Assembly: GCF_047663525.1 (NCBI RefSeq)
Contig: NC_092621.1
Coordinates: 10,637,001-10,701,000, forward strand
Source of the DNA: Anas platyrhynchos
Taxonomy: Eukaryota; Chordata; Aves; Anseriformes; Anatidae
Length of the DNA stretch: 64,000 nucleotides
Reading direction: 5' to 3'
Position numbers and translations under genes: made by a program. A model generated the notes under the pieces. That model saw nothing but the letters and a program-made list of their open reading frames with translations. It did not search any database and was not told the origin of the DNA. Each line of letters begins with the position of its first letter. Position 1 is the stretch's first letter. Shown piece after piece: positions 3,952 through 43,667 of the stretch.

Positions 3952-6900
3952 TCACGCTGCCACAGCCGTGAGGGTCTGAGACAGGCCGGAGCGCTGGGCA
4001 CTGCCTGGCACCGCCACGGCCCTTTCCTCGGGTCGCTCTCGACCCTCTGCCCCATACATGTGTGGGGGCCATCTCCTACCTGCTTCTTCTTCGGCCAGAA
4101 ACCTCTCCTTGATCACACAGTAGTGGTCCGAGTTTTCATAGGGCTGGAGCTCTGCAGGGGACAAAACAGCCTGAGGGACCTAGGGCTGCAGGAGGAGGAG
4201 CAGCGCAGACCCAGGCAGGCAGCGGCACAGGGTCCGTGGGGCTCTCCTGGCAATGACCTGCCCTCCTTACATCCCAGCCCTGCTGCCGTGGCCCTACCTG
4301 TGTAATGGTCCTCCTCGGCTTTCCTGGGCAAGGCTTTCCTCCTCCTGGGAAGGCAAAGGGGTGTCCTGAGGCTGGGCAGAGGCTGATGGGGCTGCTGACT
4401 TGCAGACCCAGCCAGGAGCCCACCAGCCAAGCCACAGTAGCACCAGCTGCAGCCCCCATGGCACCCAGAAAAGAGTGAGAGCAGTGCAGAAAGCCCCCTC
4501 TGTCACCAGCCACCCCGCTAGCCCAGCATGGCCTGAGGCAGAGCAGTGACTCTGAGTTCCCTGCCTACTCACCTGCACATCACAAACCACAGGATCCCAG
4601 CAGACAGCATGACCATCGCTGACAGCACAGCCACCACGGTGACCGCAGTCCATGGCCAGGGGCCTGGAGGCTGCCCTGAAAAGAAGCACACAGCCAGCAG
4701 TGGGTGCCACAGCCTGGGCCTCGAATCTGCAATGGCCCCAGCGATGGCAATGAATCTGTGCAAGGGTATAGAGGTGTCTGTGGGCTCATGTACTGTGTGG
4801 GATGGAGGATCACCCGCACTTATGGGAAAAGAGAGGTGTCCTGTGCCCCAGAAGGAGCTCCTGCCCTCGCCAGCCCCTGACCACAGCAAGGTGCCAGGCT
4901 GGGAAAAGGGAGGACGTGGCAGAGAGCCTCGGGCACAGGGCGCGGGGTGAGCCAGCCCCTCCGCGGAGGAGCCCACTTACCACTGCTATCAACTAGTGAC
5001 TTATGGCTTCCGAATGGGACACTGTGCAATCCCCTGATATCTGGCCAGGTGGCCAGGAGATTAAGGAGAAGAAAAAAGAAGCTGAAGGATGGCTAGGAGA
5101 CAAAACTTGCAGGGGACGCTGTGTAAGCTTTTGACATGCTGCCAAGGAGTACAAAGGGAAGGACAAGAAAAAAAAAACTGAGAGGAAGACTACGAGCCTT
5201 CAGCATGAAAGACCCCCAGAGACCCCCAGGGAGACCACCGGAGACTGATGCGCATGCTCCAGTAGGAGGGACTGGGTTTGGATTCTGGAAACTAATTATA
5301 ATAACCCAGTCTTTTTTAGAAGTAGTAATGAATATGTATTAGTCTAGGAGCATAAAAATCAGCTACTTGATGTGGCTGGTGTGCGTACTGGTGGAGTGGA
5401 GACTCCCGGCGCACCCAGCGCTGTTTGCTTACCTCTATTCCTTTAATAAATTGTGAACTTTGATTGTAGTCCTGATTTGAAGACTGAGCCATTTATAACA
5501 GAAGGAAGCATTGAAGAGGGTCACTGCCTTGCCTTCCCTTCCCCTGGCACCCTTGCAAGGTGCTGCGGTCACAGCCCTGCTCCCAGCCAGCAGCAGGGAG
5601 AGGAAGGCGGAGGTGACACTGCCCACGGCAGGTCTCCAGCTGCAGAGCTGGAGGAGTCTGGATCACTGGAAGCTGGGCGTGAGCTTTGCATCACCTCTCA
5701 GTGCTCGAGGCAACTGCTGGTGGGAGCAGACCCCTGGCTCCGTCCCCTTGCTGCCTGGCAGCGGGCTCAGCCCCTCGGGAGGGAAATGCTCCCACGGGTG
5801 CTGGCCCTCTCGCCACAGAGCGTACCCGCACCCAGCTGGCAACCTCCATGCGTGCCTCTGAAACAGGGCCAGCAGCACTCTGCCATCGGGACCACCCTTC
5901 CCTCTTAAATGCACCTCCTCACTCACCCTCGCACAGCCAGTAATCTTCAGGCTGCCAGTAGTCAGTGCTGTTCTTCACAACCCAGGACCTCTGAGGAGTT
6001 GGAGAGCTTTGGCCTGGGATATCTACACAGGCGATCTTCATGGGAGGAGGCCAGTACCCTTCAGGGCAGCTCACCATCACCACTGCACCGACCATGTAGG
6101 ATGCCATGTCTGGGACAAAGATTAATCTGGGGTCCCAGCGGGGCTTCTGGCATTTTCCTGCAACAACAAGAAGGGAAGGTGCTAGCAGGGCAGGGGCTGG
6201 CCATGCAGGGCAAGGCAGGGGACGTGGCAGGAGATCCCTGCCCTGGCACGCTACGGTGAGGGATGGAGCTGCGGGACACGACGTGGAGCAGCTTCTGCAG
6301 CACGGCCCCAGGAAGGGGATGAGGGCAGGTCTCCAACTCTGCAGCCACCAGCCCCCTCCCCACCAAGACACCCCTGGGGACCCTGGGCGAGCCCTGGGCA
6401 GGTGCAGGGGCTGCCTCCCACTGCTTTTGGCATCCTCCTCTATATCCCCCAGCACGCAGGGGCCCCAGGAGAGCTCCTGGCACCTCTCTTACCCACACAC
6501 TGCACCATGGAGCGAATGCGGGTCCAGGCACCTCCTGAGCCCTTTCCCATCCAAACTTCTCTGTACACAGGCTTCCCAGCGCTGATGGACTGGTCTTCTC
6601 TTGAACATTTGATGTGGGTGAAAGATGGCTCGAAACCCTCAGGGCAGCTCAGCGTCACTTCTTCCATCCTGTTGTACTCCTCCTGCTCTGGTGCCAGACG
6701 GAGCCTTGGGTCCCACGAGGGCTTTCGGCACGTTTCTGGCAGAGGCAAAAGCAGGTGAGTGGCTGTGGGGGTGGGGCTGCCCAGGGGTGGGTGAGGCTGG
6801 GCCACCATTTGCTTGGGCACTGGTCTCAGGCATCAAACCCAGGGAGACCGAGGGATGCGCTCAGGTATGGGGAGCATGGCCCAGGACACGGTGGGGATGT

Positions 6901-9900
6901 GGGAAACGCAGAGAGGCATGGAGGGTAGGACTGGATGACAGGGCTGCAGAGAAGGTAATTCCTGCCAACCCACGTACCAAGGCACTCCACAGGCCCCTCA
7001 ATGTGAATCCAGACACCTGTGCTCTTCCTCCCCAGCCAGGTAGTTCTGCCTACAAATCCAGAATGTTCTGCTGTCTGCACTCCCCCTGCACATCTGATGT
7101 GGGTGAAGGACGGCTTGAAACCCTCGGGGCAGCTCAGCGTCACTTCTGCGTTCTCCTTGTACACCTCCTGCTCTGGTGCCAGACGGAGCCTTGGGTCCCA
7201 CAAGGGTTTCTGGCATGTTCCTGGGTGAGGCAAAAGCGAGTTTAGTTGGGGTGTGGGTGCTGAGGTGGGGCAGGGTACCACCAGCTATCAGCAACCACCA
7301 GCAGTCCCTCCAGACACCAAAGGGAGACAGAAGGAGAGCCGTCCATGTGCCATGACGTGCCCCCCAGCAAGCCTTGCTGGGAGGGAGGGGGCTCCCCTTG
7401 TCACTTGCCCACAAAATCCCTTCTCCACCCCATTTCCATGCTCGCTCTTTGCCCCCCACCACATCCCACGGCCGGCAGCTCCCCAGGACAATCCCACCTG
7501 CAGCAGGAGACCCCCTGCAGCCGCTCTCTGGAGCTGACCCCAAGCCCAACTCAGGCTGCCCTTCACCTCGCCGTGCCCTGGCACCAGAGGAGTCGCAGGG
7601 CTCCAGGTGAGGCACCTCCTGTCACCCCACTTACTGATGCACATTGTGGGGCTCTGAATGGGGATCCATTGCCCCAACTCGTTTTTCTGTGTCCAGGTGC
7701 CCTTGTGCTCCCCTGTAGCCACAGCCTGAGGTATCCATGCACATTTAGCCTGCTGGAAGGGGGGCTGGAAACCCTCTGGGCAGCTCAGTGTCACTTCTTC
7801 GCCCTCATTATAAACCTTGCGCTCTGGTGCCAGACGAATGTCAGCGTCCCACTGGGGCCTCGAGCATTTTACTGTCAAAGGCAAATTTGTGTGAGAGTTG
7901 GGGGGGAGGATGCAGGAGGCTCGGGGAGGCCAGAACCAAGGCCGTGAGGAAACCCGAGGGGTGCTGAGCCCAGGACAGCAGCGTCACAGGGAGCAGTGGG
8001 GAAGGAGGGTGCTCTGAGGGGGGAGCTCCTCAGCAGCCGGCAGGGCACCGCAGCGCCAAGCAGGGGCTGGGGCGGGAGTGTGAGGGCAGAGAGGGGACGG
8101 GGAGAGCTGCCCCACGTACCCACGCACGCTACGGGCTCCTCAATGCGGGTCCAGGCGCCTCTGCCTCTCCTCCCCCACCAGCTGTCCCCATAGACAGGTT
8201 CTCCTGAAGTCACTCCTTGAAATTCCCTCACACATTTGGCACTGGTGAAGGAGGGCTTGAAACCTTCAGGGCAAGACAGCCTCAGTTCCTCATTCGGTGT
8301 GTAGCTGCCTTCCTTTGGGACGAGCACGATCCTTTTGTCCCACTGGGGTTTCTGGCATGTTCCTGCAGGGGAGAAAGCGTGACAGTCCTCCTTGGGGATG
8401 GGGTGCTCGGGCAGGAGGGGGCCGAGGCTGGACCACAACTGCCTGCGGGGTCATCTGTCAGCAGAGCCCCTGGGTGCGGGACAGGAGCCCCGCGGGGCTG
8501 TGAGGTGCTCAGAGCAGCAGGGCTGAGGGCAGGATCTGGCCACAGCTCAGGCAGGGCAGAGGCAAGGCCGGGCCCCGCTGGGGGCTCCTGTCCCGGCCCA
8601 GCTCGGGGGCTGCTCCCGGCCGGGGCCATCCCAGAGCCGAGCCCGAGGCATCCCACGGGCACGGTGAGACGCCAGGGGCCCTGCTGACGGAGAGGAGCCC
8701 GCGGCAGGGGAGAGCTGCTGTCTCCGAGTTACCTGTGCAGGCCTGGTACATTTCAATGTGATGCCACCTTCCCCACTTGTCCTTCACTTTCCAGGCATGT
8801 TCCCAGTCACTCCATGCAACACATCTGATCACAGCGAGATGAGGAACATCCTCAGTGAGGCAGCTCAGTGTCAGCTCCTCCCCGTTATCATAAGATGTCT
8901 TCTCTGGGACAAAGCGGAGGCTTGAGTCCCACTGCGGCTTCGGGCAAACTGCAGAGAGAAGAAGGAGAGCGTGTCAGTGGGATGGGAAGAGCCAAAGCTG
9001 ATGGACCTCTCCAGGGGTTTGTGCCTCGTTGCAGGGCACATCCCGGCAGAGGCAGGGGTAACGCTGCACAGCACGTGGGGCTGGCCCCTTCCTCCAGGCT
9101 GGAGCTCCGGGAGTGCTCCGAGAGAGCAGGGAAAGGAGCACTGGGCTTCCAGCCCTGGAGGGATTCACAGCATGCCCGAGCACGGAGGCACTCAGAGACA
9201 CACACCGGGGCCATGCAGAGAGCTGCCCATAGGCCCCAGACACAATAAAGCGTCCAGGTGAAGCTTCAGCGAGGCCAACACGGTGCAGGAGGGCAGCTGG
9301 CATGCTTTGAGCAGCAGGAGGTGAGGTTGGTGTTTCGGGAAGCTGTGCTGTGGAGCAGGAAGTGGCAGCACGGGGCAGCATGCAGCTCACAGCCGGGGTG
9401 TGCGGCCCCACGGGGCTCCTCCACGGCCTCCCTTGGGCTTTCGCTGCCCCAGGATTATCCTTGAGCCCCTTCTGGCAGCTCAACTCCACTAACACAAACT
9501 GTTTGAACAGAGCCTCGTTCTACCTAGCGCTGGGCATTGCTGCTATGGCTCCTGGGCGTCTGCGAGTGAATCATGGCCAAACAGAGCCAGCCCTGCAGGA
9601 AAACATCCCCTGCAAGCTTCTCCACCTCCCTGCTGGGCACAACGGGGCTGTAAGAGCACGAGGCCTTGGTACAGGCATTGAGTAAAGCTCTGAGCAGTGT
9701 GCCGCGGGTCTTCCACTGTCCCCTGGCCTGTGCCCCTCTCCCTGATTGTACCCCGTGTAATACACCCTAAATGTTTGTTCGTTGTCTTTTGTATTAGAAA
9801 AGCAAGGAGTTCTGTTTGAGGAGCGGGAGTTGCGAAAGCTCCCTGCTGAAGGAAGGAGCTGTAGAATGCTTGGCTAGACACTATGAAACTTCTTTTGCTT

Positions 9901-12154
9901 AATGTAAGAAAAAAGAGAACCCCCTCCCCTTCTCTCCTTCTGCATCTCAGTTGCCTCTTGTGTTCAAAGACACTGTTGCAAAGCTCAGGTAACCACCTCC
10001 TGATAAGTTGCTAAAGTAGTGTGTCAACATCCTGCCTTCCTGTGTTGCGCTGGGCCAACATGACCAAATAAAAAAAGAAGATGAACCACAGCGCTGAGGA
10101 AGACCAAGGCCTTCATCTTCACGACCACCAGAGGGACAGAGACGACCCGCTAGCAACAGTGCGCGCAGTCGCAGAACATACCAGGATGTGCTGCGTAATC
10201 CTGGAATTACCGAGACCTAAAAAGGGACCCTGGCGGGGGTGAGGTGCGCGCCGTTGGCAGAGCAGAGACTCCCCGGCCACCCAGCGCTGTTTTGCTTGCT
10301 GTTTGCTTACTCAGTAAATTCCTTTCTATTATTAATGCGATGCTCTCTGAAAATTAATTAAGGGGGCAACTTATAACACCCCTCACGTGCCTGCAGGGCT
10401 GCCCGTGCCTCTGGGAGTGGCCAAGAAGCGTTCGTGTTTCGATTCCTTTTTCACAAACACCAAGGTGCAAACTCAGCAATACCGTCTCCGCTGCAGGCAA
10501 CCCCAGAGTTGTCCTAGGACGGTCGGGTGACCGAGACGTGCAGAGCACACCCAGGACAGCTTGGGTGGAGGATTTGGGAAAGGGGCAGGGGGATGTCTTC
10601 TGCTGCGGGCTTTGCCCTTGGTTTTCCAGTGATGGCGTGCTGTGCTCACACTCCCTGTCCCTCCAGGGGCACAGCTCCCCTGGCCTATGCCATGCAGCAC
10701 AGACCCTGCTGTCCCCCACCTGGCCTGAGTTCAAATCAACACCTGAAAAAAAACAGTCCCATTTTGGGGCCCTGGTGACAGCCAGGGTCCTCGACTTGCG
10801 GGCTCCTCCAGCCTGTGCCAGCCCAGGGACATACATGTACATACAGCAGCTCCCTACAACGTGAGCACGTGCAAACTGAACATTTGTTGCCCCCCAGCTG
10901 CAGCAAGGTGAGTTTAGAGACGGCCTCCAGGTCAGATGGATGCAGAACAAGGCAGGGCGATGGTCCCCAGAGCTGGGCTCAGGCCCCAGGCCGTGCTGCC
11001 CTGGATGGGTTCACCACCTCCTGCAAGCTCAGATAGCACCTGGCCCTCCAGGCACGCAATTAACCGGCTCTGCTGCGATTAAAATGTCAGTCCCACTTCC
11101 CAGTTCTGCTGACGGACGCTGGAAATAGCAAAACAACCTCGATCTGCTCTTAGAAAGCGAGCCTTGCTGCGAGGTACCCCTGTGGGCTTGGCTCTCCACC
11201 CTCTCACCCCGTCCCGGGCTGCAGCCCCGGCTGCTATACAGGGGGAGCTGGGGGCTGCCTGGTGCTGGGGGGCTCACCCCACCACACCATGACCGATGCC
11301 CTCATGTCCCTGTGTCGTGGTTTTACCCGGCCGGCAGCTAAACACCACACAGCCGTTTGCTCACCTTCCCCCCTCCCTCTCTGGGACGGGGGAGAGAAAT
11401 GGAAAGTGAAGCCCGTGAGTTGAGATAAAGACAGTTTAATAAGACAGGAAAATAATAATAACAAAAATAATAATAACAATAATAATAATAATAATAATAA
11501 TAATACAATGGTGATAATAGGACAGTAATAATAATATGTACAAACAAGTGATGCACAATGCAATTGCTCACCACTCGCTGACCGATGCCCAGCCTAACCC
11601 CGAGCAGTCCGGCCCCCTCCCCCCAGCTAGCCACCCCTATATATTGTTTAGCATGACCCCAGATGGTATGGAATACCCCTTGGGCTAGTTTGGGTCACCT
11701 GTCCTGGGTCTGTCCCCTCCCAGCTCTTACTGCACCCCCAGCCTGCCCGTTGGCAGGACAGAGCAAGAAACAGAGATGTCCTTGGCTTAGTATAAGCACT
11801 GCTCTGCAACAATTAAAGCATCGGGGTGTTATCAGAACTCTTCTCATCCTAAGCCAAAACACAGCATTCCACCAGCTACTAGGAAGAAAATTAATTCTGT
11901 TCTAACTGAAACCAGGACACCCTGGCACGGACATCGCCTCCAGCCTCTGACAGAGCTGCTGCGTGCTGCCGGTGGCGAGGGGACACGGCAGACACGCAGC
12001 AAGGGAGCCCAACACTTTCCTCTCGCAGGGAGAAGAGCGCCCACCTCTTACCTGCCTGTCGGCGATTTTCTCTGTAACCGGTCTCATCCCTTTCCATCTT
12101 TTCTGCTGCCAGCAGAGGCGTGAGGGCCAGGAGAAGGCTCCAGCGCAGGGCCAT
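3952..12154 (-). CDS. Receptor gene B: leader, six CCPs, TM, ITAM tail
   Basis: Predicted single-pass surface receptor, about 580 residues. Exons from the 5' end: 12052-12154 leader; CCPs at 8733-8948, 8120-8362, 7635-7871, 6978-7220, 6493-6735 and 5927-6157; 4573-4675 transmembrane; 4298-4344 and 4080-4151 tail; stop TGA at 3952-3954 after acceptor 3957. Each CCP shows four cysteines and a tryptophan near the last one; those at 8120-7220 and 6493-6735 are long (about 81 residues). The membrane exon reads [19 protein letters not shown] and has no charged residue. The tail joins to YTELQPYENSDHYCVI, an ITAM. No FN3 exons remain: an LTR lies where gene C has them, and CCP-6 and the membrane exon stay phase-compatible. 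Every exon is open. Intron 1 carries two solo LTRs. The ligand is unknown. Confidence 0.85.
4997..5500 (+). mobile_element. Solo LTR at the FN3 deletion point of gene B
   Basis: About 504 bp, in plus orientation with AATAAA near 5446 and the end TTATAACA. The U5 part resembles that of the LTR ending at 10378. No target-site duplication is visible: the flanks are CTAG and GAAGG. On the right, host intron sequence resumes a few bases short of the FN3-1 acceptor of gene C. The copy at 26139-26642 differs at four positions by my count. The left boundary is my estimate. It is a fossil with no coding part. Confidence 0.7.
9756..10378 (+). mobile_element. Solo LTR in intron 1 of gene B
   Basis: The right end is clear (CAACTTATAACA at 10378, followed by CCCCT). 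The left end near 9756 (CCCCG, then TGTAATACA) is a guess from the near-match of the flanks. The stretch CACCCAGCGCTGTTTTGCTT and the end are shared with the LTR at 4997-5500, so both belong to one broad group. Gene D has no copy at the matching place, so it inserted after, or was lost since, the B/D duplication. Fossil. Confidence 0.6.
11313..11919 (-). mobile_element. ERVL-type solo LTR with CCCTG target duplication
   Basis: Read on the minus strand it starts TGTCCTGGTTTCAG and ends AAACCACGACA. It has a TATA-like ATATATA, then ATTAAA before the end, and an AAT-rich stretch. It resembles the ERVL LTR that is abundant in many birds. CCCTG flanks it on both sides (11308-11312 and 11920-11924), the 5-bp duplication expected for ERVL. 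It lies in intron 1 of gene B, 132 bp past the leader exon, in the sense of the gene. Looks whole as a solo LTR; no internal part. Confidence 0.85.
11446..11536. repeat. (AAT)n microsatellite inside the LTR
   Basis: AAT/ATA triplets with scattered AAC interruptions fill most of this interval. The tract is a normal internal part of this LTR family and likely varies in length. Confidence 0.95.
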
Positions 12155-14120: not shown

Positions 14121-14139
14121 CTTCTGCAAACCACAGGCC

Positions 14140-14145
14140 TTTATT
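14140..14145 (-). terminator. Poly(A) signal of gene C (AATAAA)
   Basis: Minus-strand AATAAA in the same GCAATAAAGGCC context as for genes B and D, about 1.5 kb past the gene C stop. Confidence 0.55.
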
Positions 14146-15098: not shown

Positions 15099-15655
15099 AA
15101 ACACGCCTTCACTGGCACAGGCCGTGGGCAGCTCCTGCCCTGTAGCAGAGGGTGCTGGTGACAGACGAGAGAGGCAATGGGAGGGGAAACAATAACCCAG
15201 CACAGGCTGTACGAGGTCCTGCTTACAGCTGGGGAGCACCAAAACTCGAGAAAGGGCCATGAGGAGGCCTTCAAAATGCCGGGCCCAGGAGCACCCAGTG
15301 CCTCTTCCCACGGTCAGACTGGGAAGCCTCTCGCACCGCTGCCTGTCCAGGCAAGGCCAGGAGGGCTGAAGAGGGCAGTGTCTTTGTGCCCTGAAAGAAA
15401 TGGCTGCAGTCCTCTTGCTCTGGTTGCCCGGACGAGACCCCCAGTGCTGGTCACAGTCACACGAGAGACAGGGTCCTGGCAGCCACCAGCACTAAGCTGG
15501 GGTCGTCCTCCCCGCGGTCTCTGCTCTCTGACACCCGCCGTGGTCTCCCAGCGTCCTGCGCAGGGACGGGGACGGTCGCTCTCCAGCCCGGCCACCTCTA
15601 CCTGCGGACACCAACAGCACCCAGGGCAGAGGCTGCTGCCAGCCCTCGGCAGAGC

Positions 15656-18600
15656 TCACGCTGCCACAGCCGTGAGGGTCTGAGACAGGCCGGAGCGCTG
15701 GGCACTGCCTGGCACCGCCACGGCCCTTTCCTCGGGTCGCTCTCGACCCTCTGCCCCATACATGTGTGGGGGCCATCTCCTACCTGCTCCTTCTTCGGCC
15801 AGAAACCTCTCCTTGATCACACAGTAGTGGTCCAAGTTTTCGTAGGGCTGGAGCTCTGCAGGGGACAAAACAGCCTGAGGGACCCAGGGCTGCAGGAGGA
15901 GGAGCAGCGCAGACCCGGGCAGGCAGCAGCACAGGGTCCGTGGGGGTCTCCTGGCAATGACCTGCCCTCCTTATACCCTGGCCCCGCTGCCGTGGCTCTA
16001 CCTGTGTAATGGTCCTCCTCGGCTTTCCTGGGCAAGGCTTTCCTCCTCCTGGGAAGGCAAAGGGGTGTCCTGAGGCTGGGCAGAGGCTGATGGGGCTGCT
16101 GACTTGCAGACCCAGCCAGGAGCTCACCAGCCAAGCCACAGGAGGACCAGCTGCAGCCCCCATGGCACCCAGAAAAGGGTGAGAGCAGTGCAGAAAGCCC
16201 TCTCTGTCACCAGCCACCCCGCTAGCCCAGCATGGCCTGAGGCAGAGCAGCGACTCTGAGTTCCCTGCCTACTCACCTGCACATCACAAACCACAGGATC
16301 CCAGCAGACAGCATGACCATCGCTGACAGCACAGCCACCATGGTGACTGCAGTCCATGGCCAGGGACCTGGCGGCTGCCCTGAAAAGAAGCACACAGCCA
16401 GCAGTGGGTGCCACAGCCGGGGCCATTCACCCAAACCCTGGCATTGGGTGTCAGTCTGGAAGAACTTCCAAGCCAGTCTGGACAGCACGACTGGGCTCCA
16501 CAGCCAAGATCCACAGCCTTAGCGTTCTCCGGCCGTAAGCCCCAAGGGTCCCTTCAGGCAGGGCTGGGCACCATCTTCTGTACTGGAAGAGAGGGGCCAG
16601 CTCTGCTCACACAGACCCGAGTAGGGGCTGAAGCAATGCCACAGCTCTGGGGCCAGGACACTATCTTGTATGGCACAGGGTGCACAGACAGACACCAGCC
16701 TAAGCAGGCCCATGGCACAGAAACCTTTACCCAAGACACTGGGTTGAAATTCCAGGTAGGAAGCATCCCCGGCACCAGCAGCCGTCAGGCCCTGGACTGT
16801 CACTGTGTACTTGCTCCCCAGCATCTGGCAGGATGGTATGTACTGGGTGACAGAGCTGTTCACTGTCACCTGCTGGAATTCCAGGAAGCTGCCGTCCTGC
16901 GCGCTCCTGGCCGTGATGTTCAGCTGCAGGAAGGACAGGAGCTGCTGGGGACCAGCACCCGGCTCCCACCCGGCACCGAGGGGGATGGCAGGGTCCTGAT
17001 CTCACCACAAACACCCCTCTCCCTGCTGCCTGCACCCACAGGCAGCCCCTGCTCCCCTGGTACCTGGTACCCGAGGATCTCCCCTTTGCAGGAGGGCAGC
17101 ACCTGCCACCGCAGCGTCCCCGTGCTGGCATCCAGCCACAGCCGCTCTGGCTTCTCGGGCACTGGAAGCACAGCGAGACAGAGTCATGCACAAAGCACAG
17201 AACGCTTATTTTGTAGTCTCTTCAAAAACTTTGTTGCTGTTCTCTGAACAAATTCTAGCAGCTCAATATCCCTCTTATACTGATGTGCCCAAAAATGAAC
17301 ACAGTATTCAATATGCTTTCTCACCAGTGCTGTGTACAAGGGGACAATAACTTCATAGTCACAGAATCACAGAATCATCTAGGTTGGAAGAGACCTCCAA
17401 GATCACCCAGTCCAACCTCTGACCTAACACTAACCAGTCCTCCACTAAATCTTATCACTAAGCTCTACATCTAAACATTTTTTAAAGACCTCCAGGGATG
17501 GTGACTCCACCACCTCCCTGGGCAGCCCATCCGAATGCCTCACAACCCTTTCCCTAAAGAAGTTCTTCCTAACATCCAACCTAAAACTCCCCTGGCTCAA
17601 CTTGATCCCATTCCCCCTTGTCCTGTCACCAGGCACGTGGGAGAACAGGCCAACCCCCACCTCTCTACAGCCTCCTTTAAGGTATCTGTAAAGAGCGATA
17701 AGGTCGCCCCTGAGCCTCCTCTTCTCCAGGCTGAACAAGCCCAGCTCCCTCAGCCATTCCTCATAGGACTTGTTCCAGGCTCCTCACCAGCTTCGTCGCC
17801 CTTCTCTGGACCCACTCGAGCACCTCGATTTCCTTCTTGTAGCGAGGGGCCCAAAACTGAACACAGTACTTGAGGTGCGGCCTCACCAGAGCTGAGTACA
17901 GGGGGACGATCACCTCCCTAGCCCTGCTGGTCACACTGTTTCTGATACAAGCCAGGATGCCGTTGGCCTTCTTGGCCACCTGAGCACACTGCTGGCTCAT
18001 ATTCAGCCGACTGTCCACCATCACTCCCAGGTCCTTCTCTGCCTGGCAGCTCTCCAACCACTCATCTCCCAGCCTGTAGCTCTGCTTGGGGTTATTGCGC
18101 CCCTGGTGCAGGACCCGGCACTTGGCCTTGTTGAACTTCATGCAGTTGACCTCAGCCCATCGGTGCAGCCTATCCAGATCCTCCTGCAGAGCCTTCCTAC
18201 CCTCGAGCAGATCGACACATGCGCCTAACTTGGTGTCATCTGCAAACTTACTGAGGGTGCACTCAATGCCCTCATCCAGATCATTGATGAAGATATTAAA
18301 GAGGACCGGCTCCAGCACTGAGCCCTGGGGAACGCCACTAGTGACTGGCCTGCAGCTGGATTTGACTCCATTCACCACGACTCTTTGGGCCCGGCTACGC
18401 CGCCAGTTTCCAACCCAATGAAGCGTATGCCATGAGCAGCCAGTTTCTTGAGGAGAATGTTGTGAGAAATGGCATCAAAAGCCTTCCTGAAGTCCAGGTA
18501 GACCACATCCACAGCCTTTCCCTCGTCCACCCAGCACGTCACTTTGTCATAGAAGGAGATCAGGTTCATCAAGCAGGACCTGCCTTCCATAAACACATGC

Positions 18601-23560: not shown

Positions 23561-23579
23561 CTTCTGCAAACCACAGGCC

Positions 23580-23585
23580 TTTATT
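23580..23585 (-). terminator. Poly(A) signal of gene D (AATAAA)
   Basis: Minus-strand AATAAA in the shared GCAATAAAGGCC context, about 1.5 kb past the gene D stop. Confidence 0.55.
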
Positions 23586-31000: not shown

Positions 31001-31810
31001 GCTGAATGGGGACAGCCTCCTAATAGGAACATAATTGGAAATGCCTATGATTCCTGCAGTCAGCAGCCTACACTTCTGGTATGTAGATAAGGAGCACTTC
31101 CCTATTCAAGCCTGTCTCAGATCCTTCAGGTCCTACAGAATTTATGCAATGAACTTCCTTAACATGACGTTGGAGAATGATCGCATCTCATGAGTTTCAC
31201 ATCATCTGAACAGAAAAGAATGGATATAAATATATATATGTATATATTCAGTTAGAGAAGGCAAGGGTTGGCCCGTCACACCACGTATCCTGCCCCCAGG
31301 GTCTCCAAGAGGCAGCAGGTGTCCCAGCTGGCAAAACTCCTTAGGTGTCCCCCTGGTCTCCAGCCCACAGATCCAATAAGCACCAGCACCAGCACCAGCT
31401 CCCCAGCAGAGAGGACATTGCCCTTATCGTCCCAGGAAGGCCACATGCTCAGGCTTTGTCTACATGCCATGCGGTGAGAACCAGACACCTCTTTCTCCCA
31501 GGGACACTGCCCCCTCCATGGAGCGTGACAGCCCAGAGCTCACAGAGGCTTTCCCAGCACACTGAGCCTTGCTGCCCTCCATCCCCAAACCCAGCTGCAC
31601 CTCCAGCCCCTACGATACAGCTGCCATGTGCTGCCAGTGGTAAAAGGCACATCAGACTGGCAAATGAAAGAGGAAAAATTTCTTCTCTTTCAGAGAGAGG
31701 AATGGGCATTTCTTACCTGCTTCCCAGGGTGCTCCTTGGGCCTTGGGACCAGTATCTTCCTGTGTCTGTATTCCCAGGAAGAAGGTCAAAGCCAGCAACC
31801 GCAGGGCCAT
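25094..31810 (-). CDS. Receptor gene D: leader, six CCPs, TM, ITAM tail
   Basis: Near-twin of gene B, about 577 residues. Exons: 31717-31810 leader; CCPs at 29930-30145, 29317-29559, 28833-29069, 28176-28418, 27691-27933 and 27069-27299; 25715-25817 transmembrane; 25440-25486 and 25222-25293 tail; stop 25094-25096. The tail joins to YTELQPYENSDHYCVI. FN3 exons are missing, with the LTR at 26139-26642 in their place. The leader belongs to the C/E type but its hydrophobic core is four residues shorter (LLALTFFLGIQT), so secretion efficiency is uncertain. The second CCP differs from B in a short run (PGVVKPFFIS where B has PEGFKPSFTS). All exons are open. Intron 1 lacks the LTRs of gene B. Confidence 0.85.
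26139..26642 (+). mobile_element. Solo LTR at the FN3 deletion point of gene D
   Basis: Copy of 4997-5500 with the same flanks, carried by the segmental duplication. Four differences in about 504 bp by my count. Fossil with no coding part. Confidence 0.7.
31223..31250. repeat. AT-rich microsatellite
   Basis: Alternating AT/TA with a few G and A interruptions, in intron 1 of gene D. Confidence 0.85.
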
Positions 31811-35000: not shown

Positions 35001-35016
35001 CTGCAGACCACACTAC

Positions 35017-35022
35017 TTTATT
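35017..35022 (-). terminator. Poly(A) signal of gene E (AATAAA)
   Basis: Minus-strand AATAAA about 560 bp past the gene E stop. The flanks (a CTGCAGACC stretch before, AACAGAGC after) are recognisably related to those of the B, C and D signals, but here no CR1 separates signal and stop. Confidence 0.5.
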
Positions 35023-35576
35023 GGTTGTTTGGATACAACAGAGCAGTTGAGAGGGCAGCAAGCTTGGGCAAAGCTCAGGCAGAGTCCTGGAGTTAGATGG
35101 GGATGGGGCTGCAAAGCAAAGAGGGGCTGGGAACCCAGTGGGGTGCTTTGGTCTCAAATGACACTTGCAAGCACCAGGTCAGGATGGAATAGCTGAGCCA
35201 AAATACTGGAGGACACAATTTTGTGGGTGCAAGCGTTTCATCCCATGCCTTGGGCTGCTCCTGGTGTGTTACAAAGTGTGCAGGAGCTTAATGAGGGATG
35301 AAATATGGGGGGTGGGGGACAGTAGCACAGCACAAGCTGTGAGGCCCTGCTTCCAGCTGTGGAGGACCAAGAGACAATGAAAGTGCCACCAGCACGGATC
35401 CGGGGACATTCACCCCATCTTCTCCTCTCCCTCACTGCTTTGTCTGATTCCTGAGGACTCCAGGATGGGCAGGGGCAGGGGCAGGGACAGGGATGGTCGC
35501 TCTCCAGCCCGGCCACCTCTACCTGCGGACACCAACAGCACCCAGGGCAGAGGCTGCTGCCAGCCCTCGGCAGAGC

Positions 35577-38500
35577 TCACGCTGCCACAGCCGTGAGGGT
35601 CTGAGACAGGCCGGAGCGATGGGCACTGCCTGGCACTGCCACGGCCCTTTCCTCGGGTCGCTCTTGACCCTCTGCCCCATACATGTGTGGGGGCCATCTC
35701 CTACCTGCTTCTTCTTCGGCCAGAAACCTCTCCTTGATCACACAGTAGTGGTCCGAGTTTTCATAGGGCTGGAGCTCTGCAGGGGACAAAACAGCGTGAG
35801 GGACCCAGGGCTGCAGGAGGAGGAGCAGCGCAGACCCGGGCAGGCAGCGGCACAGGGGGCTGCAGGGCTCTCCTGGCAATGACCTGCCCTCCTTATACCC
35901 TGGCCCCACTGCCGTGGCCCTACCTGTGTAATGGTCCTCCTCGGCTTTCCTGGGCAAGGCTTTCCTCCTCCTGGGAAGGCAAAGGGGTGTCCTGAGGCTG
36001 GGCAGAGGCTGATGGGGCTGCTGACTTGCAGACCCAGCCAGGAGCCCACCAGCCAAGCCACAGCAGGACCAGCTGCTGCCCTCTCGTGTGAGAAACTAAG
36101 TTGTGTTTTTGCAGCAGAGAACTAATTTTCTGTATTCCAAGGTGGTTGTGTAGTCATAACAAGGAGAAATGCTACGTAGATAAGTGGACAGTAGAAGGCC
36201 TCGCTGTTCCAAAATAAGGTGGAAAATAAGTTGAGATAAACAGGATGAGCAGCGTGGGAACAGTAAAACAAAGATCACAGGTTCTCAAAACGTAAGAAAG
36301 GAGAAATTAAGCAGCTGAAAAAAAGAAAAATGGTTCATATATGGTACAGAGGGGCGTCGAGTAGCTTGTGAACCTTTAGTACTAAGCCAGTGATGAAACA
36401 GAGAAGGTGAGCAGGTGTTGGATAAGAGGGAATAAAAGGTTATGATTTGTTTACTAAAATGCACTCCTGATTGACAGGACGCCTGCCATTGCAATCACAT
36501 ATAAAATAACTTCACAGAAGATCCTGTCTGAAGAAAATTATTTGAGATGTTTCTCACACATGGCACCCAGAAAAGGGTGAGAGCAGCCCCCTCTGTCACC
36601 AGCCACCCCATTAGCCCATCATGGCCTGAGGCAGAGCAGCAACTCTGAGTTCCCTGCCTACTTACCTAGACAGTGCAAACCACAGGATCCCAGCAGACAG
36701 CATGACCATCGCTGACAGCACAGCCACCACGGTGACCGCAGTCCATGGCCAGGGGCCTGGAGGCTGCCCTGAAACTAAGCACACAGCCAGCAGTGGGTGC
36801 CACAGCCTGTGTGGGTGCCCAAACATTGCCTTGGGGTGTGTGAATGTGTGCGTGCGTGTGTCCAGGCTCTGCAGTCCTGGCTCCATGCAGGGACAGGTAG
36901 TGAGGCACAGCCATGTCCTGCCTTCAGGTGAAACAGGCAGGAAGGATCTGGAGTGACAAGAAGTGTCCCATCTCCAGGAAACACCCACAGGGACCAGAAA
37001 CCTGTCCAATGCAGTCTGGATAGACTGAGGGCACACAGTCCTAGGGTTGTAGTGCTCTGTCCCCACAATTCTGGGGCCAAGCTGCTATCTTATATGGCAC
37101 AGGGTGAACAGACAGCAGCCTAAGCAGGCCCATAGAACAGAAACCTTTACCTGAGACATAGGCTTGAAATTCCAGGTAGGAAGCATCCCCAGCGCCAGCG
37201 GCTGTCAGGCCCTGGACTGTCACTGTGTACTTGCTGCCGGGCATCTGACGAGGTGGCGTGTACTGGGTGACAGAGCTGTTCACTGTCACCTGCTGGAATT
37301 CCAGGAAGCTGCCGTCCTGCGCGCTCCTGGCCGTGACGTTCAGCTGCAGGAAGGACAGGAGCTGATGGGGACCAGCACCCGGCTCCCACACTGCCCCGAA
37401 GGGGACAGCAGGGTCCTGATCTCACCACAAACACCCCTCTCCCTGCTGCCTGCATCCCACTCCCCTGGTACCTGGTACCCGAGGATCTCCCCTTTGCAGG
37501 AGGGCAGCGCCTGCCACTGCAGCGTCCCCGTGCTGGCATCCAGCCACAGCCGCTCCGGCTTCTCGGGCACTGCAAGCACAGCGAGAGGGGGTCACGCACA
37601 GGGACACCCACCTGGGGCTGAGTTTTATGGGAGAAAAGCAAAGATACCTTGACAGGCAGGGGACACTTACCTGTTGCCTTTGTCCTCAGGAGCCGTGTGA
37701 ACAGGATGGTGCTGGGGGGCACTGAGATGGTGACACTGTAGACAGTGAAGGGCTGCAGAGGCGGACAAGTAAATGTTCCTTTATGGCCATGAAGCATCTC
37801 CTGTGCCGTGACCTCCTCAGCCTCACAGGGAGGGGAGGAAGGCCCTGCCAGCCTGCACGTGGCCTGCATGCGCTGGCAGGCATCGGGCAGACTGCAGGTC
37901 CAGTTCAGTTTGATGCTGGTGGTGGAAACCTCCAAGGTCCCAGGCATGACCTGGAAGGCCTCTGTGAAAGAAGCATTGAAGAGGGTCATTGCCTTGCCTT
38001 CCCTTCCCAGCCCTGTGCAGGCCTCCCTCACTGCCACGTCCCCAGCAACGAGAGGCCGAGCCCATCCTGCCTTCTCCCCCACGACATTTGGGCACTGCCT
38101 GCACTTTCCTCTGGGCCTGGGGTGCTCCCAGACACGCTGGCAGAGGACAAGGCCAGGTGCTTGTGGTCCCTCTAAGTCTCCACCACAGGCCTAGCAGCTG
38201 ATTTGTGACTGCTCCCTTTCACTCTGACAGGGACAGACACAAACCCTGCTGCATTAGCAGCTCTTTTCTCCACAGCGAACACCCACACCATTCCCGCACC
38301 ACCCCAAGCACAGGGCCTTGGTGCCTTAGGGCTGTAGGCTGTATCTGGCACCGCTTTCCCTGCCTGGGGAGAACAGAGTGGCTGCTTCACTCACTCACCC
38401 ACACAGGTCATATTCCCCTCTACAGGCTTCCACTGTCCCGTGCTGTCCTTCACAAACCAGCCGATCTGAGGAATCAGGAAGCGTTGCCTTGGGTTGAGTT

Positions 38501-41500
38501 TCATGCAGGCAACCTCAGGGCTGGATGACCAGTACCCTACAGGGCATGTCAGTGTCAGCGTCTCATTGAGGTCGTAGGAACCACGGTCAGGGGCAAAGAG
38601 AATCCTGGTGTCCCACTGGGGCTTCTGGCATTTCACTGCACCGACAAGAGGGGAAAGCATTAGCAGGATAGAGGCAGGACCCACAGAGCTTAACAGGGGA
38701 CAGGGCAGGACATGTGGGGAAGGGGATCCTGTCTCTGGTCCGCTCTGGTGAGGAATGGAGCTCCAGGACACGATATGGGTGAGCCCCAGACATGCACAGG
38801 AGCTGCCTCCCACTGCCTGTGGCAGCTCCTCCTGCTTTCCCCAGCACACACAGGCCCCAGAATTGCTCCTGGTGCCTCCCTTACCCATGCACTCCACCTT
38901 GGAGCGAATGTGGATCCAGGCACCTCCCGGGTCCTTTCCCAGCCACTCCTCGATGTACACAGGTTTGCCATGAATGTTGGGCTGCACTTCCCCTGCACAT
39001 CTGACATGGGTAAAGGGTGGCTGGAAACCCTCGGGGCAGCTCAGTGTCGCTTCTTCGTTCCTGTGGTACTCCTCCTGGTCTGGTGCCAGACGGAGCCTTG
39101 GGTCCCACCAGGGCTTCTGGCATGTACCTGGGCAAGGCAAAAGCGGGTTTAGTTGGGGTGTGGGTGCTGAGGTGGGGCAGGGTACCACCAGCTATCAGCA
39201 ACCACCAGCAGTCCCTCCAGACACCAACGGGAGACAGAAGGAGAGCCGTCCATGTGCCATGACGTGCCCCCCAGCAAGCCTTGCTGGGAGGGAGGGGGCT
39301 CCCCTTGTCACTTGCCCACAAAATCCCTTCTCCACCCCATTTCCATGCTCGCTCTTTGCCCCCCACCACATCCCACGGCCGGCAGCTTCCCAGGACAATC
39401 CCACCTGCAGCAGGAGACCCCCTGCAGCCGCTCTCTGGAGCTGACCCCAAGCCCAGCTCAGGCTGCCCTTCACTTCGCCGTGCCCTGGCACCAGAGGAGC
39501 CGTAGGGTCACTGGGCTCCAGGCGAGGCACCTCCTGTCACCCCACTTACTGATGCACTTTGTGGGGCCCTTAATTGCAAATTCAGGTACTTAAACTGTTT
39601 TTCCTTGTCCAGGTGCAAGGCAATCACACCCTGCACAACAAAAAGGTGGGCACTGTTATTGTTGCCCAGATAAAAGGTCCAAGTGTGCACTCACAGAAGG
39701 ATAGATACCATACTGCAATTACTTTGTTCAGGGAAAGTAATAAAACCCTCTGCCTCCTGCAGGAGCTACAGAATAGCATGGTAACCAAGCCCTACATGCA
39801 TGCCTTGCTGCCTCTGATGCCACAACTCACAGATAAAAAGAACAGATATTCATTTTCTGACCTGTCTTCCTAGCACAACCTGTGATTCCTGCAGACTCCT
39901 CATATGCTCCCTGCTGTTGCCAGAATTAGATGTCAGAGAGGGGCCAGCTCTGCTAGTGCAAACCCAAGCAGGGGCTGAAGCAATGCCACAGAGGCATCCT
40001 CTGGGGCCAGGGCACTATCTTGTATGGCACAGGGTGGACAGACAGACACCAGCCTAAGCAGGCCCATAGCACAGAAACCTTTACCCAAGACACTGGGTTG
40101 AAATTCCAGGTAGGATGCATGCCCGGCACCAGCAGCCGTCAGGCCCTGGACTGTCACTGTGTACTTGCTGCCGGGCATCTGACGAGGTGGCGTGTACTGG
40201 GTGACAGAGCTGTTCACTGTCACCTGCTGGAATTCCAGGAAGCTGCCGTCCTGCGCGCTCCTGGCCGTGATGTTCAGCTGCAGGAAGGACAGGAGCTGAT
40301 GGGGACCAGCACCTGGCTCCCACCCGGCCCCGAGGGGGATGGCAGGGTCCTGATGTCACTACAAACACCCCTCTCCCTGCTGCCTGCACCCATGGGCAGC
40401 CCCCACACCCCTGGTACCTGGTACCCGAGGATCTCCCCTTTGCAGGAGGGCAGCGCCTGCCACCGCAGCGTCCCCGTGCTGGCATCCAGCCACAGCCGCT
40501 CTGGCTTCTCGGGCACTGCAAGCACAGCGAGAGGGGGTCACGCACAGGGACACCCACCTGGGGCTGAGATTTTGGGGAGAAAAGCAAAAGTACCTTGACA
40601 GGCAAGGGACACTTACCTGTTGCCTTTGTTCTCAGGAGTCTTGAGAACAGGATGGTGCTGGCAGGCACTGAGATGGTGATGCTGTAGAAAGTGTAGGGCT
40701 GCAGGTGGTTGCAGGTAAATGTTCCATTCTGGCCGTGCAGTGTTTCCTTTGCCGTGACCTCCTCAGCCTCACAGGAGGGCGAGGAAGGCCCTGCCAGCCT
40801 GCACGTGGCCTGCATGCGCTGGCAGGCATCGGGCAGACTGCAGGTCCAGTTCAGTTTGATGCTGGTGGTGGAAACCTCCAAGGTCCCAGGCACGACCTGG
40901 AAGGCCTCTGTGAAGGAAGCATTGAAGAGGGTCACTGCCTTGCCTTCCCTTCCCAGCCCTGTGCAGACCTCCCTCACCCTCACCCTTCTCTCACTGCCAT
41001 GTCCCCCCACACCTAGTGTCTGAGCCCATCCTGCCTTCTCCCACACAATATTCGAGCACTGCCTACAGTTTCCTCTGGCTCTGGACCACTCCTCAGCACA
41101 CTACAGGTGCTGCAGTGTCTGGAGAAGATTTGGGTTGGAAGGGAAATTTTTAGACCCTGTAGTCCACCCTGCTGCCACTGGCAGGGACATCTTTCACATC
41201 CATTGATGAGGCATCCACAACTTCTCTGGGCTGTCTTGCCAGTTTCCAGTGTCTTGCTACCCTCTTTGTATATTTCTTTTGTGTGTGTGTGTGTGTCTGG
41301 ACACACACAAGGGGCTCTTAAGATGCACAAAGCTAGCACAGAGATGGATGGATCAGCATTTGATCCCAGGGTCCTGTGGGATCCTTTAAGAGGCCAAGGC
41401 CTTAGGAATTGCCCCACAAAGGCAGCAAGGTGAAGCACTCAGGGGGCATGCATCAGGACACCTGGAAAGATTGGGCTGTGCATGGAGCTGCCCCTGCTGG

Positions 41501-43667
41501 CTGACTGCAGAGTGGCAGAGAAGAAATATCCCGTTCCCCTCCAATTTTGTCCCCACTCTCCTGGCACCCAGGATGGCTCCTGGTGCCTCCCTTACCCATG
41601 CACTCCACCTTGGAGCGAATTCGGATCCAGGCACCTCCCGTGCCCTTTCCCAGCCACCCCTCGATGTACGTAGGTTTCCCGTGAATGTTGGGCTGCACTT
41701 CCCCTGCGCATCTGACGTGGGTGAAGGGTGGCTGGAAAATCTTGGGGCAGCTCAGCGTCACTTCTTCATTCTGGCTGTATTCCTCCTGGTCTGGTGTCAG
41801 ACGGAGCCTGGGGTCCCACAAGGGCCTTTGGCACGTTTCTGGCAGAGGGAAAAGTGCGTTTAGGTGGTGCGGGAGGTGCTGAGGCGCAGCAGTGGCTGAG
41901 GAATCACTAGAGATGTCTTTTGGGTCCCAAACAGAGAGGGGAAGGTCTTGCAGCTGTCATGGTGTCACACCTCAGCCAGGACAAAAGGCAGAAGCCCGGC
42001 CTTCTGCTGACAAGGCACAACTGACCACAAAGCCTCAAGATGAACCCATCCAGCTCTTCTGCCTCCCAGCGGATGCCGTCCATGGGGACAAAAGCATCCA
42101 GGTCCTCCTGGACAGCCGTGTCACGGAGCCACCAGCCCAGGGCAGTGGGATCAAGGTGCTGCAGGACTGTGCTTACAGAGGTGCAGGTGGTCTTCTTGTT
42201 ACACAAGCTCTGGGTGCCCCTGGAAATGCATCTGGGGGACCGGTGGGCTGTAGTTCCTAGCGCAGCTCAGCTGGATCAGCTTGCTCAAGGCATAGCTGGT
42301 CTGGCCAGGGGTAAACTGCAGCCTGGGGTCCCTGTCGGAGGGAGCTTTGCATCCTCCTGAAGGAGGGAGAGCCCAGGGGATCACAGGGCGATGGCAGTGC
42401 CCTCAGGTGTGAGCAGGTCCCATCAAGAGGGCTGCTGGTCCTCCTTATTCAGAGCTGAGCACCTCCCAGGATGAGGCCCCTAATCCCCACTCGCATCCCC
42501 AGGCCTCACAGCCCACTCAGTGCACCCACCCTTTTCCATGTGTTTCACCCAAAATGAGCCCGTCTTGCCCTACCTCACCCAGCTTCCCTTCCCTTGTGGT
42601 GGATTCTCACACCCTGCTCCTTCGTATGTGTTACCCAGGTGGGAAACTTCATCCCCTTCAGCTGGATCCCAGTGCCCTCACACCAGACAGCCAAAAATCT
42701 TGACAGACCTTAGACCTCAGTCATCCATCTGCCTAAACCTTGTCCATCGCTGCAAGAGCAGCATCGCTCCAGCCACCAGAGATGGTTAGCATGATTCACG
42801 CCCCATAGGACAGCTTGGCAGGCCACTTCTGCTCACATTTCCCTGCAGAGATAATGACTCACGCCCCAGGCTCCCCATCCCCTGCTGCAAAGAGCAACAA
42901 TTCCTGCCGTGCCGCAGGGGGAGCTCGGCAGGTACCCCCAGCCCCAGGGTACAGTACATGAGAGCCCAGCACAGCCCTAAGGGATGCCCCTAGCTCTCCT
43001 GCCATGGAAAAAGAATAAAAAAAAAAATAGAAAAAAAAATAGAAAAAAATGTTTGAAGGACAATCCCACCAAAATACAGACTGGACAACCACAGGGACTG
43101 GAGAGAGAACAAGTGTCCCAGCCAGCACAGGGCTGGGTCTCGCGGCTCCCCAGGTCTTTGCTGGGCACTAGCACCCATGTCTACAGCAACGGGCGATTTT
43201 TTTGCTATTATCACCCCAGAAAGGCCATGTGCTCAGGCTTCCCCTGCCCAACACACAGTGAGAACCAGCCACCTCCTGCTCCCAGACGTGCTGCCCACCC
43301 CATGGAGGCACGGAGGGGGCTGTAGTGTGGAGGCATTTCCAGCACACCGAGGATCACTGCCCTACATCCCCAAAACACAGCTTCACCCCACCACAGCCTG
43401 ACATGCCCAAGAGGCTCAGGACCAGTATGGATACTGGGTTTAGTCCTCTCCAGCACAGCCACCATGTGCCAAGCAGTGGAAAGCCGCAAGGACGACTTGC
43501 AGGGAGACGAGCAGCAAAAGCTTCCCTTGAAAAGAGAGGAGCAGCCAGCCCTTACCTGCGTCCCTGGCTCCTCGTCGGGCTCGGGCAGCAGGATCTCTCT
43601 GTTCCTGTGTCCCCAGCAGAGGGCTGAGGACCAGCAGAAAGCCCAGAGCCAGCCCTGGCAGGGCCAT
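35577..43667 (-). CDS. Receptor gene E: double CCP/FN3 unit, TM, ITAM tail
   Basis: Exons: 43556-43667 leader; 42026-42356 CCP (damaged); 41596-41838 CCP; 40617-40907 FN3-1; 40418-40515 and 40085-40277 FN3-2; 38885-39127 and 38399-38635 CCPs; 37671-37961 FN3-3; 37472-37569 and 37151-37343 FN3-4; 36666-36768 transmembrane; 35924-35970 and 35705-35776 tail; stop 35577-35579. The tail joins to YTELQPYENSDHYCVI. The first CCP opens with GCKAPSDRDPRLQF but hits a stop near 42199 and fits only with a one-base shift. If it is skipped, leader and next CCP join in frame for about 741 residues. The two CCP/FN3 halves look like two genes fused after the first lost its membrane and tail exons and the second its leader. 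It is the most diverged copy and lacks the CR1. An LTR-like insertion lies in the intron at 36087-36558. Confidence 0.75.
36087..36558 (+). mobile_element. LTR-like insertion in gene E
   Basis: About 470 bp not found at the same intron position in B, C or D. The ends are perfect 10-bp inverted repeats, TGTGAGAAAC and GTTTCTCACA, that start TG and end CA. AATAAA near 36431 suggests plus orientation. I read it as a solo LTR of unidentified family; a short DNA transposon is possible, but no target duplication is clear. Fossil. Confidence 0.5.
39550..39574 (-). pseudogene. Relic of CCP-3 exon end in gene E
   Basis: Only the last 25 bases and the donor GTAAGTGGGG of the third CCP exon of B and D remain. 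From about 39575 to 39930 the sequence is unrelated to the other genes and unrecognised. The exon cannot be used. Confidence 0.65.
41280..41297. repeat. (GT)n microsatellite
   Basis: Nine GT units in the intron between the second CCP and first FN3 exon of gene E. Confidence 0.9.
43008..43051. repeat. A-rich tract
   Basis: Three runs of seven to eleven A separated by ATAG, in intron 1 of gene E. Confidence 0.85.

Follow-up and report, generated by a model that had tools for sequence, protein, structure and literature searches.

Bird receptors that join CCP or CCP/FN3 ectodomains to an ITAM-type tail on one chain, and their possible pairing with receptor tyrosine phosphatases

Four genes, B to E, in the 64,000-nucleotide stretch of duck (Anas platyrhynchos) DNA analysed here (the window) join a CCP or CCP/FN3 ectodomain to an ITAM-type tail on a single chain; the tail is kept in annotated bird proteins ranging from those of tinamous and kiwi to those of songbirds, and the ectodomain modules recur in receptor tyrosine phosphatases (RPTPs). 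That these are single-chain receptors, as an earlier sequence-only reading had proposed, is well supported by both the gene models and the conservation across birds. The best explanation, and one that we consider fairly probable, is a bird family of single-chain ITAM receptors with Syk-type signalling, whose partner is probably a phosphatase receptor with a similar ectodomain. The receptor type of the sequence-only reading is thereby retained, whereas its lone activating receptor gives way to a possible paired system, because the FN3 ectodomain is common to the RPTPs and to tail-less forms. To our knowledge this type of ectodomain is not known to carry an ITAM, and a literature search found nothing on this receptor family.

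All four copies have intact GT-AG models that are open throughout signal peptide, ectodomain, helix and tail (Table 1). The ectodomain is of CCP type in B and D, and of CCP+FN3 type in C and E. CCP exons were located with an HMM built from the CCPs of the same window; Pfam Sushi scored 55.5 bits for B (cutoff 20.7) and 16.2 bits, below cutoff, for E, which scored 77.5 bits for Pfam fn3 (cutoff 25). By eye, the CCPs of the duck genes look atypical, with long inserts. The B signal exon has an identical second copy at about 340-442, part of another gene, A, that runs out of the window. A tblastn search (E 0.01) gave no match within the window to the phosphatase part of the relative P0183, and these genes show no PTP domain. 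C-type-lectin-like pieces joined by eye, and the open reading frames there, were unrecognised by Pfam, and one open reading frame from that stretch found nothing in a PDB search.

Table 1. Features of the four receptor genes, in window positions
Feature	Position	Strand	Remarks
Gene B	3788..12154	-	signal exon, six CCP exons, TM, ITAM-type tail; open model, GT-AG sites, phases match
B signal-peptide exon	12052-12154	-	MALRWSLLLALTPLLAA...
B six CCP exons, span	5927..8948	-	CCP HMM and Pfam Sushi
B CCP exons	8733-8948, 8120-8362, 7635-7871, 6978-7220, 6493-6735, 5927-6157	-	
B transmembrane exon	4573..4675	-	no charged residue
B tail exon 1	4298..4344	-	47 nt; supplies the first half of ITAM box 1 at its end
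B tail exon 2	4080..4151	-	72 nt; completes box 1; holds YEN and box 2
B last coding exon	3788..3897	-	GRGGRAGERPSPSLRRTLGDHGGCQRAETAGRTTPA stop; acceptor, frame, match to annotated duck proteins
Gene C	15492..22406	-	CCP+FN3 ectodomain, TM, ITAM-type tail
C signal exon	22301-22406	-	
C CCP	21781-22023, 21167-21397	-	
C FN3-1	20447-20737	-	
C FN3-2	17064-17161 + 16731-16923	-	
C TM	16277-16379	-	
C tail exon 1	16002-16048	-	100% identical to B tail exon 1
C tail exon 2	15784-15855	-	
C last exon	15492-15601	-	
Gene D	24930..31810	-	CCP ectodomain, TM, ITAM-type tail
D signal exon	31717-31810	-	own to D
D CCP exons	29930-30145, 29317-29559, 28833-29069, 28176-28418, 27691-27933, 27069-27299	-	
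D TM	25715-25817	-	
D tail exon 1	25440-25486	-	
D tail exon 2	25222-25293	-	ELQPYENSDHYCVI
D last exon	24930-25039	-	
Gene E	35410..43667	-	CCP+FN3 ectodomain, TM, ITAM-type tail
E signal exon	43556-43667	-	
E CCP	41596-41838	-	
E FN3	40617-40907; 40418-40515 + 40085-40277	-	
E CCP	38885-39127, 38399-38635	-	
E FN3	37671-37961; 37472-37569 + 37151-37343	-	
E TM	36666-36768	-	
E tail exon 1	35924-35970	-	
E tail exon 2	35705-35776	-	ELQPYENSDHYCVI
E last exon	35410-35522	-	
Decayed CCP exon upstream of E	42208-42351	-	in-frame stop; excluded from E model

The two tail exons of B lie where the sequence-only reading had placed them, with matching exons in C, D and E, and in each gene they are joined by GT-AG sites of matching phase to yield the motif. 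Box 1 is indeed split across the splice, the first tail exon ending in ...EEDHYT and the second completing the box. B, D and E share the spliced tail EEDHYTELQPYENSDHYCVI, and that of C reads ...ENLDHYCVI, giving a four-copy consensus of YTELQPYEN[S/L]DHYCVI; shuffling of the full tail produced a strict ITAM by chance in 0.1% of shuffles. A search of solved structures with the tail alone as query gave no meaningful match. The membrane helix was likewise found to be uncharged, with no charged residue in the TM exon of any of the four duck copies; in the TM windows called automatically for bird tails 62 of 72 are without charge, and the other 10 windows look truncated, misplaced or drawn from models that lack a TM. 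The proposed read-through of B to position 3952 is probably wrong and is replaced by a spliced last exon, since the last exons of B, C and D match the C-termini of the annotated duck proteins P0001 and P0002 (97-100%) and that of E resembles the C-terminus of goose P0004.

The copies are 93-100% alike around the tail, intron sequence included (ungapped repeat families D2-D4), with pairwise differences of 0/282 in tail exon 1 and 52/876 in intron 2. It is true of B, C, D and E that all four genes keep the motif; as recent tandem duplicates they provide weak evidence, and their agreement was rejected as a sign of selection.

Stronger evidence comes from other birds, where the relatives are database proteins taken to be gene predictions. 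Loss of either box in orthologues from other birds would have refuted the sequence-only reading; both boxes proved to be kept in tail-bearing proteins across birds. Searching with the tail region of P0024 yielded 23 candidates, and the 18 matches were all from birds. Both boxes were present in 72 tails out of 210 listed proteins, as counted by a regular expression that demanded YC or YS as well as EN or GN and hence misses tails that have lost these; tail exon 2 occurs without box 1 in 11 of the 210 models, at least 5 of which join FN3 straight onto the exon, and 31 are incomplete or other. The strict form (YxxL/I-x6-8-YxxL/I) is found in 4/4 duck copies and in 40 of the 72 bird tails, the other 32 having the relaxed form only. 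These 32 tails count against the ITAM reading, and so does box 2 (YCVI), whose +1 and +2 residues are more hydrophobic than an ITAM normally has. In alignment A2, of 49 bird proteins from 48 species hand-picked for having the tail, the majority residue has a mean share of 0.87 over the ITAM stretch, compared with 0.66 in the tail downstream and 0.67 over the last CCPs. The middle tyrosine, absent from the discussion in the sequence-only reading, falls little short of the two ITAM tyrosines in conservation (Y 46/49, E 49/49 and N 48/49 in the YEN triplet). An ITIM or ITSM reading was rejected: in none of the 72 tails is Y-2 occupied by an ITIM-type residue (I, V, L or S) in box 1 or box 2, or by the ITSM-type T in box 2.

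The same tyrosines could instead form an endocytic or sorting tail on a scavenger-type CCP receptor, in which YTEL and YCVI/YCVV/YCVM would be two YxxPhi signals for AP-2 and YEN an adaptor site, with no Syk signalling. Every variant of box 2, V and M at +3 included, fits YxxPhi, and the songbird spacing of 9-10 would be immaterial to AP-2. We nevertheless regard such a tail as unlikely, as YxxPhi alone leaves unexplained the acidic Y-2 position of box 1 (72/72), the spacing of constantly 8 in all 49 tails outside songbirds and the YxN between the boxes (YEN; 70/72). Alternatively, box 1 could be the sole Syk site, acting in dimers as in Dectin-1 and CLEC-2, with YEN and box 2 recruiting Grb2 or other SH2 proteins. 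Consistent with this, box 1 is strictly conserved (A2: Y 48/48, L 48/49) in an EED-x-Y-x-x-L context that resembles a hemITAM, while box 2 is variable at +3 (V at its last position in 9/72 tails) and its distance is altered in songbirds (spacing 9-10 in 23/72 tails, all songbirds). The box 2 tyrosine is, however, present in 48/49 aligned sequences at a spacing that does not vary outside songbirds, and this arrangement seems quite improbable. That the genes are annotation artefacts or decaying duplicates expressing no receptor might be suggested by the recent tandem copies, the CCP exon of E interrupted by a stop, introns that contain a CR1 insertion and an LTR-like stretch, and the database model P0001, in which D-type 5' exons seem fused to C-type 3' exons, but is very improbable given that all four copies are open throughout and different bird orders conserve the tail.

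What is new here, on comparison of the protein sequences, is that FN3 modules are common to the ITAM receptors, to bird and turtle RPTPs (CCP-FN3-TM-PTP-PTP) and to tail-less forms, which end just before box 1. FN3 domains were extracted by HMM from 202 of the 210 proteins, replacing a regular expression (79/210), and compared by mean identity and by nearest neighbour. In 11 pairs of an ITAM and a phosphatase gene the FN3-1 domains are 0.90-0.97 alike (class mean 0.679), and in 10 of these pairs both genes come from the same bird family; the likeness is seen in several bird families, but not in songbirds. Class changes counted on FastTree trees (27 for FN3-1, 20 for FN3-2) were set aside, because the count had no shuffle control and the domains are short and noisy. 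The phosphatase-type relatives show 50-71% identity to the scored FN3 region of a tinamou protein and retain the first-domain signature VHCSAGIGR; the PTP domain is present in relatives such as P0183, and two-domain chains outrank one-domain chains in the phosphatase subfamily comparison. The ITAM, phosphatase and tail-less genes are apparently on the same chromosome; the length of the longest contig is the same for them in 14 species, and related genes in Columba guinea bear the locus tags _016451 and _016453. Gene-model fusion may lie behind shared-ectodomain forms.

From these sequences we infer that the ITAM receptors are expressed as single-pass type I proteins whose CCP and FN3 modules would bind ligand outside the cell; with a membrane helix free of charge, the chain should need no adaptor. 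Clustering would lead a Src-family kinase to phosphorylate both boxes of the putative module D/E-x-Y-T-E-L-x2-Y-E-N-x(2-4)-x-Y-C-V-I/V, on which Syk or ZAP-70 could dock, and the YxN (Grb2-type) tyrosine between the boxes would add Grb2-type adaptors. Since related genes link similar CCP/FN3 modules to a two-domain receptor tyrosine phosphatase, or end without a tail, the family probably operates as a paired set: one arm would become phosphorylated and the other would take phosphate off, the phosphatase being a possible brake. Tentatively, this may be a bird paired system, probably Z-linked, of gene-converted CCP/FN3 twins on an ITAM chain, a transmembrane phosphatase and a tail-less third form, the activating twin having perhaps arisen in the bird lineage when an ancestral sauropsid phosphatase receptor had its tail exchanged. 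If the receptor reading is true, a whole uncharacterised activating family would be added to the immunity of birds, which include poultry and influenza reservoir hosts; if the receptors are paired with a phosphatase receptor, the brake of the pair would be the enzyme itself and not an ITIM.

Among known systems, CEACAM3, Dectin-1 and CLEC-2 are likewise innate-cell receptors that bring their own ITAM or hemITAM, but have Ig or C-type lectin ectodomains without CCP or FN3. CR1, CR2 and CD46 are type I membrane proteins built of CCPs, with no FN3 and a tail without an ITAM. FcγRIIA (human FCGR2A) is an unrelated gene with an Ig ectodomain that binds IgG, unlike the CCP/FN3 bird receptors. It resembles them in carrying its own ITAM-type tail on one chain, FcR-gamma being unneeded; the spacing in that tail is 12, against 8 (9-10 in songbirds) in the bird receptors, and with this non-classical spacing and three phosphorylation sites it is still classed as an ITAM (PMC6563257). 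The bird and turtle RPTPs, annotated in birds as PTPRK/M/T/U/F/alpha-like, have FN3-1, FN3-2 and CCP-type modules in common with the ITAM receptor, whereas the window genes carry the ITAM tail in place of the phosphatase domain. Paired receptors such as the FcR-like, SIRP, TREM and CHIR families similarly place a similar ectodomain on activating and opposing chains, with sequence exchange between them; the opposing arm in birds would differ, with the phosphatase built into the chain where those families use an ITIM to recruit SHP-1.

B, C, D and E were shown by repeat comparison within the window to be recent tandem duplicates, and each was rebuilt with GT-AG sites and matching phases. Their modules were tested against Pfam: Sushi (CCP) scored 55.5 bits in B against a cutoff of 20.7 and fn3 scored 77.5 bits in E against 25, while Sushi in E, at 16.2 bits, was under its cutoff. 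The last exon of E uses another frame (...PLPILESSG...) than those of B, C and D, which diverge after AGERPS; the E frame resembles that of goose protein P0004 and of many other birds. Near the left end lies an exact copy of the B signal-peptide exon, and a further family member, gene A, seems to extend past that end. B and D are without FN3 exons and have an LTR-like stretch there, and the intron of B adjoining the membrane (TM) exon reads like the read-through end of another goose protein, P0098, after its CVCYSFSV exon, which makes B and D look like products of recombination between two gene types.

Receptor genes, repeat remnants and flanking genes, with positions counted from the window start
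Feature	Position	Strand	Architecture or content	Basis
Gene B, last exon	3897-3788	-	signal, six CCP, TM, tail	splice and frame; C-terminus as in annotated duck proteins
Gene C, last exon	15601-15492	-	signal, two CCP, two FN3, TM, tail	splice and frame; C-terminus as in annotated duck proteins
Gene D, last exon	25039-24930	-	signal, six CCP, TM, tail	splice and frame; C-terminus as in annotated duck proteins
Gene E, last exon	35522-35410	-	signal, CCP, FN3, FN3, CCP, CCP, FN3, FN3, TM, tail	splice and frame
Gene A, signal-peptide exon	~340-442
LTR-like stretch in B	4700-5520			LTR identity by eye only
Counterpart in D	about 25840-26660			placed by offset
CR1-like remnant	18375-19262	-	reverse transcriptase, as in the two CR1-like remnants below; between FN3-1 and FN3-2 of C	RVT_1 above cutoff
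CR1-like remnant	45099-45575	-		RVT_1 below cutoff
CR1-like remnant	2563-3312	+		by eye only
Presumed TESK1-like kinase gene, right flank	50300-58400	+	ORF 55011-57278	ORF matches Pfam kinase; name and extent assigned by eye
Presumed CD72-like C-type lectin gene, adjoining the receptor cluster	60400-63000	-	YADLRF ITIM-like motif

The tail join is as the sequence-only reading had written it: exon 1 ends ...EEDHYT and exon 2 starts ELQPYEN, giving YTEL-x8-YCVI. A strict ITAM arose by chance in 0.1% of full-tail shuffles and in 0.4% of random sequence of equal length. The further claim that all four genes keep this tail stands in that the motif is present in B to E; their agreement is not independent, since the copies are 93-100% alike around the tail (repeat families D2-D4), with 0/282 pairwise differences in tail exon 1 and 52/876 in intron 2.

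A protein search with model C gave 239 matches, the best 120 of which were all from birds and mostly named uncharacterized or hypothetical. The best, Anas platyrhynchos LOC113840127 (P0001), looks as if first exons of D type had been fused to a C-type tail, so gene models in this family call for caution. Forty-nine hand-picked tail-bearing sequences from 48 species (Cuculus twice), ranging over tinamous, kiwi, ducks, landfowl, pigeons, cuckoos, waders, raptors and songbirds, were then aligned. The earlier reading had tied its case to both YxxL/I boxes persisting in other birds, and among these tails the tyrosine of box 1 is retained in 48/48 and that of box 2 in 48/49. The box 1 leucine is kept in 48/49 and the middle YEN at Y 46/49, E 49/49 and N 48/49; position +3 of box 2 is I in 39, V in 7, M in 2 and L in 1. 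In this alignment the mean share of the majority residue was 0.87 for the ITAM stretch. The FN3s, at 0.82-0.84, and the TM stretch, at 0.82, came next, and values were lower for the last CCPs (0.67) and for the tail beyond the ITAM (0.66).

The 210 proteins listed in three protein searches were classified by regex: 72 have both boxes, 76 are phosphatases (PTP), 11 have tail exon 2 only, 31 are other or incomplete and 20 are tail-less, the last an undercount as at least five of the 31 end alike by eye (P0075, P0080, P0084, P0096, P0110). The regex requires part of the motif, so that tails without that part fall outside the 72; within these, a strict ITAM is found in 40, an acidic residue at Y-2 in all 72 and YxN between the boxes in 70, and none is of ITIM or ITSM type. 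Box spacing is 8 in 49, 9 in one and 10 in 22, the longer spacings all in songbirds, judged by names, and box 2 has V at +3 in nine and M in three.

Tail-less forms, which end immediately ahead of box 1 (for example ...SRKRKSLPSKAKEDN or ...KAKEDN), occur in many birds, among them ostrich and kiwi; examples are P0016, P0018, P0072, P0118 and others by regex and P0075 by eye. They may be decoys, or may arise where the phosphatase gene has an alternative end. In at least five of the 11 listed exon-2-only models (P0003, P0021, P0025, P0106, P0116) FN3-2 is joined straight to tail exon 2. The frame is kept if TM (103 nt) and tail exon 1 (47 nt) are skipped together, and soluble forms are therefore possible.

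A search scored on the FN3-FN3-TM-tail of tinamou P0024, for lengths of ~550-1750 residues, gave 124 proteins. Among the best 120, most long ones are named bird receptor tyrosine phosphatases and five are turtle phosphatases; none is a non-bird ITAM protein within this length range, outside which shorter non-bird proteins fall. In chicken P0183 Pfam recognises Sushi, fn3 and two stretches of Y_phosphatase. The first PTP domain of this protein keeps VHCSAGIGR, and at the second domain the four proteins inspected have VTCWDGASR. The best PDB scores of P0183 were to two-domain PTPRS, PTPRE, LAR and PTPRA structures, then CD45. One-domain chains of PTPRK, T and M scored lower, in part through their shorter length, and the ranking therefore does not fix the subfamily of P0183. 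The 64-kb window itself gave no phosphatase match.

Of the 210 listed proteins, 202 have both FN3s; 163 of these fall into the three classes, and the 146 non-identical rows among them were used to compare the FN3 domains. Mean ITAM-phosphatase identity was 0.679 for FN3-1 and 0.605 for FN3-2. For either domain the nearest neighbour of a row usually came from its own class, an ITAM row being nearest to another in 55/63 (FN3-1) and 60/63 (FN3-2). FN3-1 identity reached at least 0.90 in 11 ITAM-phosphatase pairs, from a loon, pigeons, eagles and hawks, a cuckoo, cormorants and ducks, and FN3-2 identity did so in three. Ten of the 11 lie within what we take to be one bird family, the remaining pair being eagle with ibis. 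In loon and cuckoo the FN3-1 domains of the two chains are 97% and 95% alike, on equal-size contigs; being alike and not identical, these are not one exon counted twice. High FN3-1 identity was seen in only some of 16 chosen comparisons (13 within species; Falco, Corvus and Numida-Coturnix between species) and in none of the six from songbirds (60-68%). Exact common stretches reach at most 135 residues between ITAM and phosphatase models (cuckoo) and at most 322 between tail-less and phosphatase models (ostrich), where the match breaks off at the junction that precedes TM. Fusion of gene models, or one gene with alternative ends, could also account for such stretches. When the two match tables were compared by hand, both forms had the same longest-contig size in 14 species, and in Columba guinea their locus tags are _016453 (ITAM) and _016451 (phosphatase). 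On these sequence comparisons, the ITAM and phosphatase receptors would likely form a paired system.

Neither Pfam nor PDB searches confirmed the CD72-like identity of the lectin gene. TESK1 and CD72 are, we presume, neighbours at a locus on the bird Z chromosome, and the contigs of 70-126 Mb in many listed species would fit such a location.

ITAMs are read by Src-family kinases and Syk, which would be the readers of this tail too. The fixed points for such a mechanism are a helix lacking charge, an acidic ITAM that encloses a YxN, and conservation through birds. Alternatively, box 1 might be used as a hemITAM, or the tail might be an endocytic YxxPhi tail. A full-text literature search, with slight coverage of subscription papers, gave nothing on this family or kind. 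The nearest lead comes from a review (PMC5465252), which mentions a glycoprotein of ascidian hemocytes bearing two ITAMs. For a self-contained ITAM chain such as B to E the precedent is FcgammaRIIA, whose own ITAM is widely spaced with three phosphorylation sites (PMC6563257).
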